This document shows positions 7,700-54,972 of a stretch of 59,993 nucleotides of DNA, one piece after another. The position numbers were made by a program, and so were the translations under genes. Positions within the stretch are counted from its first letter, which is position 1; every line of letters begins with the position of its first letter. The stretch covers positions 1-59,993 of the forward strand of contig NZ_CP061097.1 of NCBI RefSeq assembly GCF_017654485.1, written 5' to 3'. The DNA is from Roseomonas marmotae. GTDB lineage: Bacteria > Pseudomonadota > Alphaproteobacteria > Acetobacterales > Acetobacteraceae. The notes under the pieces are model-generated. The model was not told the origin of the DNA, ran no database searches, and saw nothing but the letters and a program-made list of their open reading frames with translations.

Positions 7700-8387
7700 G
7701 TGGTAAGCGGCGATATGGATCACCGCTATCGGCCTACGCTGCCGGTCATGTACGACGGCGGCAAGCACGATTTCGTCCAGCAGCCCTTCTTCCAGTGCCA
7801 GCGCGCAGCCATCCTGCCGCGCTGTGGCCTCTTTTGCCCGCAAGGTCGGCAGGTCGGTGATTGTCTTCGGCGTCGGCGGCCGGGGCCCGCTCCGCGCGAG
7901 AATGCTCTCCACCTCCTCGTCGGGCATGAGCGCCATCATGGCCCGCCCTCCGACGAACTGGCCAATAAAATGCGCCGGCCGACGAGGGTAGCGAAGAAGC
8001 TCTCCCGTTCACTCTGCAACCGGATGGCATAGATGATCGACAGGTTGTCCAGCAGGCTGAGGTCAACGCGCTCCTGTACCGTGTGGCACAGTCCGATGCG
8101 TGGACGTGGCGCAGTCCGCCAACGGATTGATGCGCAGGAAGTCGAAGTGCCGGTCCAGAAATTAATTTGCAGGAATGAAATAGCGGACGCCATCATCCCG
8201 CTCGATACAGCCCAGGCGGGTCAGCGTATAGCTGACCCCCTGGGCGCTGCTCTTATCCAGTCCAGGGACCTCTGCACGTTGGGACAGTGACATGGGATGC
8301 GGCTGGCGCCCGAATGCCTCCAGCACGCGGAAGGCGCGTTCCAGGCCCTGATGTCGAGGCGCGGATCGACATCTGCATCGACCATGG
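7700..8387 (-). pseudogene. Frameshifted IclR-family transcriptional regulator
   Basis: Reading the minus strand through three frames recovers an IclR protein. The N-terminal helix-turn-helix (GLERAFRVLEAFGRQPHPMS, DKSSAQGVSYTLTRLGCIER) is interrupted by a stop around 8160. The effector domain follows in a second frame (ERVDLSLLDNLSIIYAIRLQ) and then a third (DEEVESILARSGPRPPTPKT, DGCALALEEGLLDEIVLAAV). At least two frameshifts and one stop are needed, so the gene is dead. It lies between the Bug receptor and the MBL-fold pair and may once have controlled either. Confidence 0.8.
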
Positions 8388-8605: not shown

Positions 8606-9400
8606 ATGTCCAAAACGATGCGCCCGGTTACTTCTAAACCCAGCGGATCCCTGCCCCGCGCTTTGCGAGGCAACTTGCTTTGGACAGGAGGATCGCTGAG
8701 CTTCATCTACAAAGATCGGGAAGTGCGGAGCCATATCTCGGTCTATGCCCTCAAGGGTTCCGAGAAGATCATCATGGTCGATACCGGCCATCCCTCCCAC
8801 TGGGATGACTTGGAGCGTGACATCGACAGGTTTCTCGACGGCAGAAGCCTCGACTTTATCTTCCTGACGCACATCGAGTTCCCGCATATCGGGCTCCTCC
8901 CAAACTGGATGCGCAAATTCCCCGACGTGCAGGTCTACGGTATGGTCAGCGACCTGTTTCACTACTTCCCGGACGAGGCGCACCGCTTCCATACGGTCGC
9001 CCCCGGAGACTTCCTGGACCTGGGCGACACGAAATTCGTCTTTGTGCCAGCCGTCTGGAGAGACATGAACAACACACTCTGGGGATTCGAGACGCGGGAC
9101 CGCACGCTTTTCGTCGCCGACGCCTATGGGTATATGCACTACCACGACAAGGGCGAGACGGATGTCCTTAGCAGCGAACGGCCCGTCCCTGACCTTGAGG
9201 CGTTGCAGTTCCTGAACGAGCGGGCGCTGTACTGGACGAAGTACGCCGATACGCGGGAGACCTTCGGCAGCATGGACAGCCTGCTGGATGTCCTGCGGCC
9301 GCATCTCATCGCGCCCGCGCATGGCGGCGTGGTCGATACGCTCCCGGCTATGAACCCGCTGATCAAGCAGGGCATGATGATGATGAAGCTGCCGGTTTAA
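8606..9400 (+). CDS. MBL-fold protein, flavodiiron (ODP) type with altered metal site
   Basis: 264-residue metallo-beta-lactamase-fold protein resembling the diiron domain of flavodiiron proteins and oxygen-sensing ODPs rather than hydrolytic MBLs. The signature is LTHIEFPHIG: His89, Glu91 and His94 match the HxExDH motif, but Pro93 replaces the Asp. The strand that normally carries the next His reads FVPAVWRDMNN without it. The bridging Asp is present in FVADAYG (Asp172), as is the late His in APAHGG. The metal site is therefore incomplete or rearranged. It lacks flavodoxin and rubredoxin domains. An AT-rich stretch (about 8395-8480) precedes it and is the likely promoter. It is followed after 27 nt by a divergent homologue. 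ATG at 8618 is an alternative start. Confidence 0.75.
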   Translation: MSKTMRPVTSKPSGSLPRALRGNLLWTGGSLSFIYKDREVRSHISVYALKGSEKIIMVDTGHPSHWDDLERDIDRFLDGRSLDFIFLTHIEFPHIGLLPNWMRKFPDVQVYGMVSDLFHYFPDEAHRFHTVAPGDFLDLGDTKFVFVPAVWRDMNNTLWGFETRDRTLFVADAYGYMHYHDKGETDVLSSERPVPDLEALQFLNERALYWTKYADTRETFGSMDSLLDVLRPHLIAPAHGGVVDTLPAMNPLIKQGMMMMKLPV

Positions 9401-50291: not shown

Positions 50292-50858
50292 TCATGCGCT
50301 GTGAGCGGCCTCGGCTGGCGCCAGCAGCCCCCATTTGGCCGCCAGCGCCTGCCGCTCGGCTGCCGTCAGGGCGCTGCCCTCCCCTCCCCATCTCCCTTCC
50401 TGAGCTTTCTTTTTCACTGAAGAGACTTCGGCTGACCGGGCTTCGGTATCGCTGAGAGCCCACTGCGCCGGGCTGGCGAAGAGGTAGGCGCTGGTCCACT
50501 GGCACCAGCGGCCGGCGACCGTGATGCCGCGGCGGACATGGCCCATGATGCCGGCGGCCTCGATCCGCTGCAGGGCGAGCTGGACGGTGGAGCGGGCGCA
50601 GCCGGACCAGGCGGCGAGCTGGGCTAGGGAGGGGTCACAGACGCCATGGCGGGAGGGGCCGCGGTAGAGCAGCGTCCAGAGGACGAGGATACCGGTGCGG
50701 CGCAGCGCGCCGCCGTGCATCCCGGGCTGGTGGCTGTGCCGCTCCAGGCGACGCGCGGCCTCCATGATGCGGCGCCGGTCGGCATCACCCAGGCGCTGGC
50801 GTTGCCAGGCGGCAACGCGCACGGACCCGGTACGCGCTGGGCGTGGTGAGATAGGCAT
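50292..50858 (-). CDS. Winged-helix Rep-like DNA-binding protein
   Basis: 188 residues with a winged helix in the middle: GILVLWTLLYRGPSRHGVCD, LAQLAAWSGCARSTVQLALQ and RIEAAGIMGHVRRGI. The layout (assay-like opening helix, GntR/Rep-like HTH, disordered charged tail SSVKKKAQEGRWGGEG) is seen in small replication or regulatory proteins of plasmids. It is divergent from the parA block with 370 nt between, where an origin would be expected. ATG 50858 is better spaced from AGGAG than 50864. Replication initiation is inference. Confidence 0.55.
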   Translation of the reverse strand: MPISPRPARTGSVRVAAWQRQRLGDADRRRIMEAARRLERHSHQPGMHGGALRRTGILVLWTLLYRGPSRHGVCDPSLAQLAAWSGCARSTVQLALQRIEAAGIMGHVRRGITVAGRWCQWTSAYLFASPAQWALSDTEARSAEVSSVKKKAQEGRWGGEGSALTAAERQALAAKWGLLAPAEAAHSA

Positions 50859-51146
50859 GCCCATGCTCCTGGGCCGCCAACAGGACGCAGTTTCCCGTTC
50901 CGCGAATCTTGCGGTTGAAAGCGCAGGGGCCTATCTTCGGAGTAGCACTACACTCCAGTTCCGCCCGGCAAGGCGGGACAGGCCGTTTTCACGAAGAGGG
51001 GTTGTTCTGGCGGTTCTGCTGGGGCGGCCCCTTTCTCATTTTGGCCCCGGGGATTCGAGGCCACGTTTCAGCATGGCTTCAGGCGCGGTTAAGATCAACA
51101 TCTCCCGCAACAGCCTTCCCGCCTAAACCATTGAAGTTCATTAGTT

Positions 51147-51216
51147 CCGACCTCCCGAATTATCGGAATGTCGGTAATCCGACATATCGGTTGACCGGCA
51201 AGCCGGAATATCCGAC
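51147..51216. repeat. Palindromic repeat cluster upstream of parA
   Basis: A 70-bp run of short alternating inverted motifs (CCGACCTCCCGA, TCGGAATGTCGG, CCGACATATCGG, CCGGCAAGCCGG, CCGACC) ending 10 nt before the parA start. It is the same motif family as inside and after the par genes. A partition centromere or operator is likely. Confidence 0.65.
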
Positions 51217-51225
51217 CTTTGACCT

Positions 51226-51924
51226 ATGGCACCTCAAATCCTGGCTTTAGCCAGCACAAAGGGCGGCGTAGGCAAGACCACGCTCGCCTTTTGCCTCGCA
51301 ACAGAATTGGCACGGCGGTTGGCCGACATGTCGGATAGTCGGAATCCCGACATGCCGGATGGTCGGCTGGTTGAGTGTATCGACGCCGACCCGAACCAAA
51401 CACTTTACCAAGCGATTCGTCGGGGTAAGGCGAAAGGTGTTCGTGCAGAGGTGGCTAACGGCGAGACTCTGCTGGCGGCTGTCGGTGAGGCCAGTAAGCG
51501 AGCCGGATTGATCGTGATCGACTTGGAGGGCACCGCCAACCAAGCCATGCTCTATGCTTGCGGCAAGGCAAACCTAGTCCTGATTCCGGCCCAGCCATCG
51601 CTCTTCGATGTGGTTGAGGCGATGAAGACCCACGCCGTAGTGGAGCAGGCGGCAGACCTGACACGGCGGGAGATCACCACTCGGGTTGTTCTCTCCCGCA
51701 CGCCCGTGCTGCGGCAGCGAGTGGTCGAACATAGCCGGAAGCAATTCGCCGAGCGGGGGCTGCCGATGCTGTCCACGGAGCTGATGGAGCGGACCGCCTT
51801 CCGATTGATGACCTATACAGGCACTCCTCCATGGGAAGACGACCCGGAAGGTGGTGCGGCCGGCAATGTAACTGCGCTGGGTGATGAAGTGGCAGCGCTG
51901 CTGGGATGGACTGATAATGGCTAA
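51226..51924 (+). CDS. parA: ParA-family partition ATPase
   Basis: 232-residue Walker-type ATPase of the small (type Ib-like) ParA class. The deviant Walker A is STKGGVGKTTLAF (residues 10-22), A' is VECIDADPNQTLY, and GLIVIDLEGTANQAM is the Walker B region. It positions plasmid copies with the help of the small DNA-binding partner encoded next. Odd feature: residues about 31-49 (LADMSDSRNPDMPDGRLVE) form an insertion between the first helix and the A' strand, and the DNA encoding it is a cluster of the same CCGACAT-type repeats found on either side of the genes. An ATG directly after the upstream repeat cluster is the start. Confidence 0.88.
   Translation: MAPQILALASTKGGVGKTTLAFCLATELARRLADMSDSRNPDMPDGRLVECIDADPNQTLYQAIRRGKAKGVRAEVANGETLLAAVGEASKRAGLIVIDLEGTANQAMLYACGKANLVLIPAQPSLFDVVEAMKTHAVVEQAADLTRREITTRVVLSRTPVLRQRVVEHSRKQFAERGLPMLSTELMERTAFRLMTYTGTPPWEDDPEGGAAGNVTALGDEVAALLGWTDNG
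51323..51366. repeat. Repeat cluster inside the parA coding sequence
   Basis: CCGACATGTCGG (a perfect 12-bp palindrome) followed by ATAGTCGG, CCCGACATGCCGG and TGGTCGG. The 14-mer CCGACATGTCGGAT recurs exactly at 52250-52263. It is in frame with parA and adds about 17 residues. Confidence 0.75.
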
Positions 51925-52225
51925 GCGTCCCTCGACACCCATTCCTGACCTGAACGATGATGAACTGCGGCAGCGCCTACAGCCTCTCGCTGACCGCGTC
52001 CTGCCGAGTGTGCCAACGGTGCCGCCTGCACGGGCTACGAAGCCGAAGCGGCAGGGGATGGAATTCGCGCTGCCGGAAGCGGTTGCTCTGGAGCTTAAGA
52101 CCAGGGCCGCGCGGAGGAATACCTCCGCCACTACTATACTGCTGGAGATCTTGCGTGACGCTGGTTATCCGGTTGTGCCGGCTGACTTCGTGGACCTCCG
52201 GAAGGTGCCCCGGAAGGCCGTATAA
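51917..52225 (+). CDS. Ribbon-helix-helix partner of ParA
   Basis: 102 residues: a disordered Pro-rich N-terminus (PIPDLNDDELRQRLQPLADR) and a C-terminal ribbon-helix-helix (KRQGMEFALPEAVALELKTR, AARRNTSATTILLEILRDAG). This is the size and layout of centromere-binding proteins that pair with small ParAs. It overlaps parA by 8 nt. It should bind the flanking repeats and probably represses its own operon (inference). Confidence 0.75.
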   Translation: MAKRPSTPIPDLNDDELRQRLQPLADRVLPSVPTVPPARATKPKRQGMEFALPEAVALELKTRAARRNTSATTILLEILRDAGYPVVPADFVDLRKVPRKAV

Positions 52226-52228
52226 TCG

Positions 52229-52466
52229 GTAGACCGATATTCCGGAGTGCCGACATGTCGGATAACCGACATTTCGGCACTCCGACTTTCCGGCCTCCCG
52301 ACTGTTTTTGCACCTTATTTGCGGATCTTCGCGCCGGGCCGAGCCGTATCTAAAACGTTAACGCCATGCTAAAGCCGAATAGTCGGATGGCCGATATTCC
52401 GGATATCCAATATGTCGGGAAACCGGTCTGTCGGCATTCGCCCTTCCGGCCGTCTGACGGTTTAGT
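52229..52466. repeat. Palindromic repeat clusters downstream of the par genes
   Basis: Two clusters. At 52229-52305: GACCGATATTCCGG, CCGACATGTCGG, AACCGACATTTCGG, TCCGAC, TTCCGG, CCCGAC. At 52375-52466: GCCGAATAGTCGG, GGCCGATATTCCGG, ATATGTCGG, AACCGGTCTGTCGG, TTCCGG, GTCTGACGG. The spacing is irregular and motif orientation alternates. Short frames through them (MSDNRHFGT and MADIPDIQY) look fortuitous. The 350 nt beyond (52467-52815) contain nothing I recognise. Confidence 0.65.
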
Positions 52467-52815: not shown

Positions 52816-53352
52816 GTGCATCTGGCCTATGTCGACTGCAGCAACCTGTTCATCGAGGCGCAGAAGGTCAGCGCGGTGGCGCGAGGCTGGGCCCGCAGCC
52901 TGGCCGAGGTAAACCAGCAGAGCCGACCTCACTTCAGCTATCGCATCGACTTCCATCGCCTGATGGCGCTGCTGCGCGAGCTGGAGGATCCGGTGCAGGC
53001 CGCCGTGTTCGGATCGATCACTGACGGTAATGAGGGGCTGTGGCGCCATGCCGGGGCGGCCGGCTTTGCGGTGCAGGTGGTGGAGCGGAGCATCAGTGGT
53101 AAGGAAAAGCGGGTCGACACCGGCCTGGTCACCCGCATCTGCCGTGACGCCTACCGGCTGGGGCAGCCGGGCAGGGACCGCATCACCCTGGTGGCCGGCG
53201 ACGGCGACTACGAACCGATGGTACGGCAACTGGTGCAGGACGGCTTCGAGGTAACGCTGCTCTACTGGTCCCATGCCAGCCGTGAGCTGCAGGCCGTGGC
53301 CAGCCGCTTCTACCCGCTCGACGATGACCTGGAGGATCTGGCGCTGCGCTGA
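52816..53352 (+). CDS. NYN-domain (LabA/DUF88-like) putative RNase
   Basis: 178-residue PIN-like NYN protein: VHLAYVDCSNLFIEAQKV (first Asp, Asn), KEKRVDTGLVTRICRDA (second acidic) and LVAGDGDYEPMVRQLVQDGF (the GDGDY metal-binding motif), then VTLLYWSHASRELQAVA. Such proteins are predicted metal-dependent ribonucleases. GTG 52816 with AAAGG upstream starts exactly at the domain; an ATG at 52618 would add unstructured sequence. A small hairpin follows. Confidence 0.85.
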   Translation: MHLAYVDCSNLFIEAQKVSAVARGWARSLAEVNQQSRPHFSYRIDFHRLMALLRELEDPVQAAVFGSITDGNEGLWRHAGAAGFAVQVVERSISGKEKRVDTGLVTRICRDAYRLGQPGRDRITLVAGDGDYEPMVRQLVQDGFEVTLLYWSHASRELQAVASRFYPLDDDLEDLALR

Positions 53353-53650: not shown

Positions 53651-54972
53651 GGGACTGTCAGGAATTTCGTGTGTGGCGGGGCATAGTAGGGAAGAAGGAG
53701 ACCCCCTATGGCCCGACGGAAAGAGCCGCGGATCCCGGATGCGATCCTGGACCAGTTGCTGGCCGGTGCGGACGCCAGAACGGCCTTCGAGCAGGGCGGC
53801 CTGCTGGATGAGCTGAAGAAGGCGTTCACCGAGCGGGCGCTGAACGCCGAGATGGACCACCACTTGGCCGGAGAGGGTGGTGAAGGCAACAGCCGCAACG
53901 GCTATGGCCGGAAGTCGGTGGTCACTGACAGTGGCAAGCTGGCGCTGGAGATCCCACGCGACCGGCAGGCGAGCTTCGATCCGCAGCTGATCGCCAAGTA
54001 CCAGCGGCGCTTCCCTGGCTTCGATGACAAGGTCATCTCGATGTACGCCCGCGGCATGAGCGCGCGGGAGATCGTGGGCCACCTGCGCGAACTCTACGGC
54101 ATCGAGGTCTCGCCCGACCTGATCAGCGCTGTCACGGATGCCGTGCTCGACGAGATCAGCGCCTGGCAGAACCGGCCGCTGGAGCCCGTCTACCCGGTGG
54201 TGTTCTTCGATGCCCTGCGGGTGAAGATCCGGGATGAGGGCCTTGTCCGCAACAAGGCGGTGCACATCGCGCTGGGCGTCCGGGCCGACGGTGGCAAGGA
54301 GATCCTGGGCCTGTGGCTGGAGCAGAATGAGGGTGCGAAGTTCTGGCTGCGGGTGATGAACGAGCTGCGCGGCCGCGGTGTCGAGGACCTGCTGCTGGCG
54401 GTGGTAGACGGGCTGAAGGGCTTCCCTGAGGCCATCCTGGCAGTGTTCCCGGAGGCCGTGGTGCAGACTTGCATTGTTCACCTCCTGCGCCAGAGCCTGG
54501 ACTTCGTCGCCTACAAGGACCGCAAGCCCGTGGCCGCGGCGCTGAAGGCGATCTACCAGGCCGTGGATGCCGCCGCCGCCGAAGCGGCCCTGACTGCCTT
54601 TGAAGCAGAATTCTGGGGCCAGAAATATCCCGCCATTGGCCAGAGCTGGCGCCGCGCCTGGACCGAGGTCGTGCCGTTCTACGCATTCAGCGTCGAAATC
54701 AGACGGTTCCTCTACACCACCAATGCCATTGAGGCGCTGAACGCGAAGCTGCGCCGTGCAGTTCGAAGCCGAGGGCACTTCCCCACGGATGAGGCCGCCC
54801 TGAAGCTGCTGTTTCTGGTCTTGCACCGGGCGGAGAAGGAGTGGACCATGCCGCCGCGGGAATGGTCCATGGCTAAGGCGCAGTTCGCCGTTCTGTTCGG
54901 CGAGCGCTTCACTCGCGCCATGGCCTGAGCATGTTCAACCGCTCCGCCGCACACGAAATTCCTGACAGTCCC
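53651..54972 (+). mobile_element. Complete IS256-family element (1,322 bp)
   Basis: Ends GGGACTGTCAGGAATTTCGT and complement, flanked by a perfect 8-bp target duplication CGTGGCCC (53643-53650 and 54973-54980). The duplication proves a simple, fairly recent insertion into the sorbosone-dehydrogenase-family gene. A 5' fragment of the same element is at 43959. Confidence 0.95.
53708..54928 (+). CDS. IS256-family transposase
   Basis: 406-residue mutator-type transposase: MARRKEPRIPDAILDQLLAG, GRKSVVTDSGKLALEIPRDR, PVVFFDALRVKI (first Asp), LLAVVDGLKGFPEAI (second Asp), ALNAKLRRAVRSRGHFPTDE (Glu is in the preceding IEALNAK). Full family length, probably active. Confidence 0.95.
   Translation: MARRKEPRIPDAILDQLLAGADARTAFEQGGLLDELKKAFTERALNAEMDHHLAGEGGEGNSRNGYGRKSVVTDSGKLALEIPRDRQASFDPQLIAKYQRRFPGFDDKVISMYARGMSAREIVGHLRELYGIEVSPDLISAVTDAVLDEISAWQNRPLEPVYPVVFFDALRVKIRDEGLVRNKAVHIALGVRADGGKEILGLWLEQNEGAKFWLRVMNELRGRGVEDLLLAVVDGLKGFPEAILAVFPEAVVQTCIVHLLRQSLDFVAYKDRKPVAAALKAIYQAVDAAAAEAALTAFEAEFWGQKYPAIGQSWRRAWTEVVPFYAFSVEIRRFLYTTNAIEALNAKLRRAVRSRGHFPTDEAALKLLFLVLHRAEKEWTMPPREWSMAKAQFAVLFGERFTRAMA

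Follow-up and report, generated by a model that had tools for sequence, protein, structure and literature searches.

A probable type Ib partition module of Roseomonas marmotae with a predicted centromere/operator that reaches into its own coding sequence

In par2 of plasmid pB171 the parC1 and parC2 arrays flank parAB on both sides, and we know of no intragenic array in that system. The sites of the type Ib module TP228 parFGH lie upstream. Elsewhere, the parS of B. subtilis lies in spo0J, the parS sites of HTH-ParB systems are single palindromes for clamp-type ParB, and Rickettsia palindromic elements are dispersed over many genes. According to excerpts of the source, the TP228 centromere is composed of degenerate tetramer boxes with AT-rich spacers (PMC7308502). 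For pSM19035 delta/omega, the excerpted account has one RHH dimer bound per short repeat, arrays of 7–10 repeats at several places and a requirement for at least four contiguous repeats for full ParA activation (PMC9499535). Coding sequence can harbour a partition site, as documented, again in excerpt, by the intragenic parS of HTH-ParB systems (repABC replicons; PMC9040568), and a Rickettsia palindromic element is described as one case of an in-frame DNA repeat in a coding sequence (excerpt of PMC5656822).

The window analysed here, a stretch of 59,993 bp, is an entire contig of the 4.83-Mb, 10-contig Roseomonas marmotae genome. It is probably a plasmid, because its par locus has named relatives in Pseudoroseomonas species and on plasmid p546-4 of Roseomonas haemaphysalidis; no exact overlap between the contig ends was seen. 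The locus (Table 1) combines two features of type Ib modules, a deviant Walker A motif in a short ParA and arrays of short repeats (four) beside the genes. We interpret it as a type Ib (TP228 ParF/ParG-like) partition module with a centromere/operator that reaches into its own coding sequence, and assign this reading a probability of about 0.7.

Table 1. Coordinates of the par module within the window.
Feature	Position	Strand	Description
Upstream array	51147..51206	none	8 YCGR boxes, 8-bp spacing; last box 19 bp before parA start
parA	51226..51924	+	232-aa deviant Walker ATPase, type Ib kind; nearest fold TP228 ParF
Extra-loop coding stretch	51319..51375	+	Residues 32–50, between helix 1 and strand 2
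Intragenic array	51323..51366	none	6 YCGR boxes, 8-bp spacing, within parA
RHH-like ORF	51917..52225	+	102 aa; ribbon-helix-helix (RHH)-like C-terminus; overlaps parA end by 8 bp
Downstream array 1	52210..52301	none	11 boxes in 12 slots; starts in last RHH codons
Downstream array 2	52375..52434	none	7 boxes in 8 slots

ParA has no N-terminal HTH domain, and its deviant Walker A motif (STKGGVGKTT) occupies residues 10–19. Pfam matched the protein to VirC1, CbiA and AAA_31; against the NCBIfam model ParA_partition (NF041546) it scored 115 bits, below the cut-off of 180. The AlphaFold2 model (mean pLDDT 88.7) has its nearest PDB folds in TP228 ParF/ParA (5u1g, 4dzz), and the sequence profile agrees. 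The resemblance to TP228 parFGH extends to the small partner, here predicted to be an RHH protein. A promoter/terminator scan found no promoter-like site 5′ of parA.

The 102-residue partner is a putative centromere-binding protein, and a relative of it adjoins parA in all 11 of the close loci described below. Its assignment as RHH draws on a weak match to the Mnt repressor (E = 0.0024, after the limit had been relaxed to 1), obtained with a 33-row profile built from the window protein and 32 of 33 homologues, and on a strand–helix–helix reading of the C-terminal sequence. That this is the basis of the assignment counts against our reading of the module, as does the monomer model, which contains no strand and returned nothing significant in a fold search. 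Pfam and NCBIfam gave no match.

Clusters of two motif pairs, CCGACAT/ATGTCGG and CCGGAAT/ATTCCGG, had been predicted before, inside and after the two genes. All three clusters are present in the window, but the motifs turn out to be surface forms of one rule, a tetramer YCGR (CCGA, TCGG or CCGG) repeated with a strict 8-bp spacing. The last cluster does not lie wholly after the genes, since its first array begins within the 3′ end of the RHH gene; the 14-mer said to be repeated exactly downstream is so repeated, within a common stretch of 16 bp. Between 51140 and 52470, YCGR boxes are separated by 8, 16, 24, 32 and 40 bp in 26, 24, 20, 17 and 14 pairs respectively, and by any other distance up to 40 bp in at most 5. 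Beyond the four arrays the 60-kb window has no further chain of at least four boxes. In 200 sequences of 60 kb simulated with a first-order Markov model, the longest chain was at most 3 boxes in 168, 4 in 31 and 5 in one; the mean number of chains of at least four was 0.19 per window, and none had 6 boxes. For the other periods between 5 and 15 bp the longest chain had 5 boxes (period 12), and periods of 4 and 16 bp partly catch the same sites.

The intragenic array had been predicted to encode an insertion between the Walker A helix and the A′ strand, and this is borne out: the GKT..DADP span measures 41 residues in the window ParA compared with 26–27 in 35 of 45 distant loci (those that could be parsed). 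The extra stretch, residues 32–50, reads LADMSDSRNPDMPDGRLVE. Loop residues 36–47 lie in the model between a helix (17–35) and a strand (48–53), and confidence there is low (ten-residue means of 67 and 65). A flexible surface loop of ParA between helix 1 and strand 2, as this low confidence suggests, would explain why the array is tolerated.

We compared 11 close loci, namely the window and loci with ParA identities of 97% (L003), 96% (L062), 95% (L061 and L012), 89% (L004), 88% (L063), 70% (L005), 66% (L006), 63% (L007) and 58% (L065). L010, L011, L013, L014 and L015 were left out as second copies, judged by identity and position, of the window, L003, L004, L005 and L007. A class-wide search with P0030 found no close relative (the own genome only, among 385). 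Viral contigs are the source of L061, L062, L063 and L065, and a further search gave 58 loci, those four contigs and 54 others (50 at no more than 36% identity and four short matches at 46–69%). The four IMG/VR ‘viral’ contigs that bear the par module are 38–56 kb long and may be plasmids rather than viruses.

An intragenic array occurs in all 11 loci, and in 10 of them its 5–8 boxes, in 8-bp register with single empty slots allowed, code for the loop that joins the Walker A helix to the A′ strand. In the six closest relatives it has 7–8 boxes and spans the equivalents of 51315–51374; the window's own array, with 6, has decayed furthest within the close set, which counts against our reading. 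In L007 the usual site is without an array and the boxes lie elsewhere, five in parA (relative positions +176 to +212, in the codons of another ParA loop) and seven in the linker-coding part of the RHH gene. In-register arrays upstream or downstream accompany the genes in 9 of the 11 loci. Two loci count against the reading: in L005 the boxes lie on both sides of the genes but depart from the strict 8-bp spacing, and in L065 no array adjoins parA, the 4-box arrays of this locus lying at −1074 and +2699. No chain of at least four YCGR boxes was found at 45 distant ParA loci (30–40% identity), scanned for boxes of this type only and mostly over 1.5 kb on each side; a search for arrays of any exact 4-mer found none in L016, L017, L040, L072 and L073, and L066 (ParA 26%) has no array. 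Since these 45 loci are without chains and the parseable ones have the shorter span, the extra ParA loop is, judged by sequence, a feature of this clade. The close homologues that share the insertion do so with strong repeat character in the DNA, and the original prediction survives this check.

In the mechanism that we propose, the binding site of the module would consist of 8-bp boxes distributed over ∼1.3 kb, on both sides of the parA–RHH gene pair and within parA. Cooperative binding of RHH dimers, one to each box, would cover every array. The upstream array is likely the operator, where binding would repress, as well as part of the centromere, and the arrays together would form the centromere that recruits and stimulates ParA, stimulation being exerted by at least four contiguous boxes. 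With 6 boxes, the intragenic array alone reaches the four-repeat minimum of pSM19035. It would be binding-site DNA kept in frame, such that the loop sequence follows from the boxes and not the boxes from the loop. RHH binding, and a centromere or operator function for each array, are proposed by analogy with known RHH partition systems. The regularity of the arrays, with the same 8-bp rule inside and outside the gene, the constraint at the DNA level, the matching of box type by lineage group (both described below) and the other positions in L007 are observed, and they support the first of two alternatives in the original prediction, namely that the centromere extends into the ATPase gene. We give even odds to a broader version, in which the centromere is woven through the operon as RHH-box arrays in flexible-loop codons of the motor (two ParA loops) and in the linker of the centromere-binding protein. 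If so, recombination could not part the segregation site from the segregation genes, and centromere evolution would write disordered protein segments.

The intragenic array could instead act mainly as an operator, with bound RHH protein tuning the expression of parA by blocking elongation or aiding looping with the upstream array, and have little role in partition. RHH partition proteins are known repressors, as is stated for ParG (excerpt of PMC7308502). The positions of two arrays suit such a role: the upstream array ends beside the parA start codon and the intragenic array begins ∼100 bp into the first gene of the operon. However, L007 has an array in its RHH linker, and so far downstream a promoter-proximal role fits less naturally. 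Because RHH partition sites often serve both partition and repression, the linker array does not separate the two functions; a predominantly regulatory role for the intragenic array nevertheless seems unlikely to us.

We think it very unlikely that the boxes, instead of serving partition, are oriV iterons to which a replication initiator binds. Plasmid iterons are short tandem arrays as well, and a divergent HTH protein (50292–50864) adjoins the locus, but the intragenic arrays stay with the ParA–RHH pair in all 11 loci and in L007 enter the coding sequence of both ParA and the RHH protein.

The constraint on the intragenic array acts on the DNA rather than on the peptide. Divergence was measured over 64 positions in the 21 pairs formed by 7 of the 11 loci, those with ungapped inserts (L005, L006, L007 and L065 were left out). 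Within the array the fraction of comparisons that differ is 0.110 for the YCGR core, 0.036 for CG alone and 0.368 for the 4-bp spacer; for the same registers elsewhere in parA it is 0.207 (core) and 0.200 (spacer). Shifting the register weakens or reverses the core/spacer effect, which is 0.257 at the true register and 0.126 at the next best. Codon position is nearly balanced across the register because 8 and 3 are coprime. At codon positions 1, 2 and 3 the array spacers differ in 0.361, 0.295 and 0.448 of comparisons and the rest of parA in 0.071, 0.032 and 0.505, and core third positions differ at only 0.242. Mean amino-acid identity among the seven loci is 0.63 in the insert vs 0.94 outside it.

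Box number was also compared with that expected from synonymous codons drawn at random (20,000 draws for each of the seven loci), which gave means of 2.4–2.7 boxes in the best register vs 6–8 observed (P = 0 to 0.014). The value for the window, 0.014, is the weakest of the close set and counts against our reading. With segment limits set by hand around the arrays, P was 0.0011 for L005, 0.014 for L006 and 0.0057 for L065, and for L007 it was 0.0031 at the ParA site and 0.00055 in the RHH linker; box number is above the synonymous-codon expectation in all 11 loci (P = 0 to 0.014).

Box type inside the gene agrees with that of the flanks at the level of lineage groups. CCGG accounts for 14/53 intragenic and 50/166 flanking boxes in the close clade and for 16/18 and 26/29 in L005, L006 and L065 combined, where the L005 flanks comprise every YCGR in two stretches, in any register, and the L065 flanks are its two distant arrays. 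L007 is intermediate (2/5 intragenic and 7/12 other boxes, the RHH-linker array included). The agreement is absent within the close clade, which counts against our reading (L061 has a CCGG share of 0.50 inside and 0.19 outside), and across the 11 loci the intragenic and flanking shares correlate with a Spearman coefficient of 0.63 (P = 0.038, relatedness uncorrected). Boxes of the CCGA type number 33 within the gene and 112 beyond it, and both sets have the extended consensus CCGACAT.

These data bear on the possibility that the peptide is selected, for example as a ParA loop contacting the RHH protein, and that the regularity of the DNA is a by-product of an 8-residue repeat. The loop is present in all six relatives at 88–97% ParA identity, and amino-acid repetition in the wider family is strong. 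We took the best 120 of 407 ParA homologues, of which 119 were parsed; in the 86 with a loop of at least 16 residues, lag-8 identity is 254/1104 (0.23), other lags from 3 to 13 give 0.034–0.080 and 300 shuffles gave at most 0.091. At least three lag-8 identities are found in the loop of 47 of the 119, at most 12 in 200 shuffles, and as many identities at lags 6, 7, 9 and 10 in 1–4. Such a repeat is also what the DNA would produce, because three boxes in 24 bp must write one. Against selection on the peptide, the amino acids vary most at the spacers and core third positions are conserved, synonymous codons are non-random, each lineage group has a similar box type inside the gene and in the flanks, the loop is modelled with low confidence, and the array of L007 lies elsewhere. 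We consider this explanation highly improbable.

The RHH linkers were treated in the same way. In 13 homologues chosen by eye as repetitive-looking (P0136 and P0141–P0152) there are 68 lag-8 identities vs at most 50 in 500 shuffles; the signal is weaker in a wider set of 18 linkers (0.143 at lag 8 vs a shuffled maximum of 0.114, with 0.136 at lag 3). Growth of the ParA loop by 8-residue steps only was rejected as a general rule, which also counts against our reading: among 414 pairs with 80–90% identity outside the loop, the loop lengths are equal in 287, differ by exactly 8 in 7 and differ otherwise in 120. After DADPN, many of the homologues P0034–P0120 have xGMPDI/GNPDI-like letters where the DNA of L007 has its box array, and across much of the clade this second ParA loop may hold another intragenic site.

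The second alternative in the original prediction, a mobile palindromic element inserted in frame in the style of the Rickettsia elements, can be dismissed almost outright because no dispersed copies were found and the array is open-ended: the structure tolerates the in-frame site and the palindromic 12-mer CCGACATGTCGG recurs downstream, but an exact search of the 4.83-Mb genome found this 12-mer only twice, at 51323 and 52250, both in this locus, BLAST of downstream array 1 against the genome returned only this locus at E below 1 (matches outside it are of 14–19 bp with E above 2), a scan of the 60-kb contig for degenerate arrays showed none beyond the four of this locus, there is no fixed element sequence but arrays of 4–15 boxes in mixed orientation across the loci compared, the orthologous site is kept in relatives down to ∼58% ParA identity, and the 45 distant ParA loci have no array.

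Set beside the described systems, the locus shares tetramer boxes with TP228, here YCGR with a 4-bp spacer. The TP228 box letters differ from YCGR, and unlike TP228 the present module has sites also in parA and downstream, and a box-coded extra loop in its ParA. Arrays on either side of two genes are common to this locus and pB171 par2. Likewise, pSM19035 has an RHH protein and short-repeat arrays at several places; its repeats are 7-bp WATCACW units that overlap promoters, and the excerpted text describes no array in coding sequence (PMC9499535). In contrast to intragenic parS, the sites here would form an in-frame array of putative RHH boxes encoding a loop of the motor, and in contrast to the Rickettsia elements they were detected at a single locus. 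Three features have precedents, each by itself: arrays that flank parAB, promoters overlapped by RHH boxes, and coding sequence that contains a partition site. What appears to be new is an RHH array within a partition ATPase gene that builds a protein loop; no report of one was found in the open-licence literature, where a search for MetJ boxes also found nothing.

If the centromere/operator does reach into parA as we propose, the locus would provide a clear case of a protein segment dictated by DNA-binding sites in its own gene, of a centromere colonising coding sequence, and a natural test of a partition complex acting through a transcribed gene. It would also account for variable ParA loops, which would otherwise pass for insertions of no evident cause, and reading 8-residue repeats as the trace of three boxes in 24 bp would offer a rule for finding hidden centromeres in protein alignments.

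The divergent protein encoded at 50292–50864, beside the upstream array, has a weak match to HTH_36 (PF13730, E = 8.8e-5, below the cut-off) and could have a replication or regulatory role. In L077 (NZ_CP061181.1, a R. haemaphysalidis plasmid; locus 7763–8002 and 8692–8997) an antisense hypothetical protein is annotated across the upstream array, and the gene table, which in PLSDB is incomplete, omits the RHH ORF. Downstream of the par module, a NYN-domain protein (PF01936) is encoded at 52816–53352 and is followed shortly by a Mutator-family transposase (PF00872) at 53708–54928.
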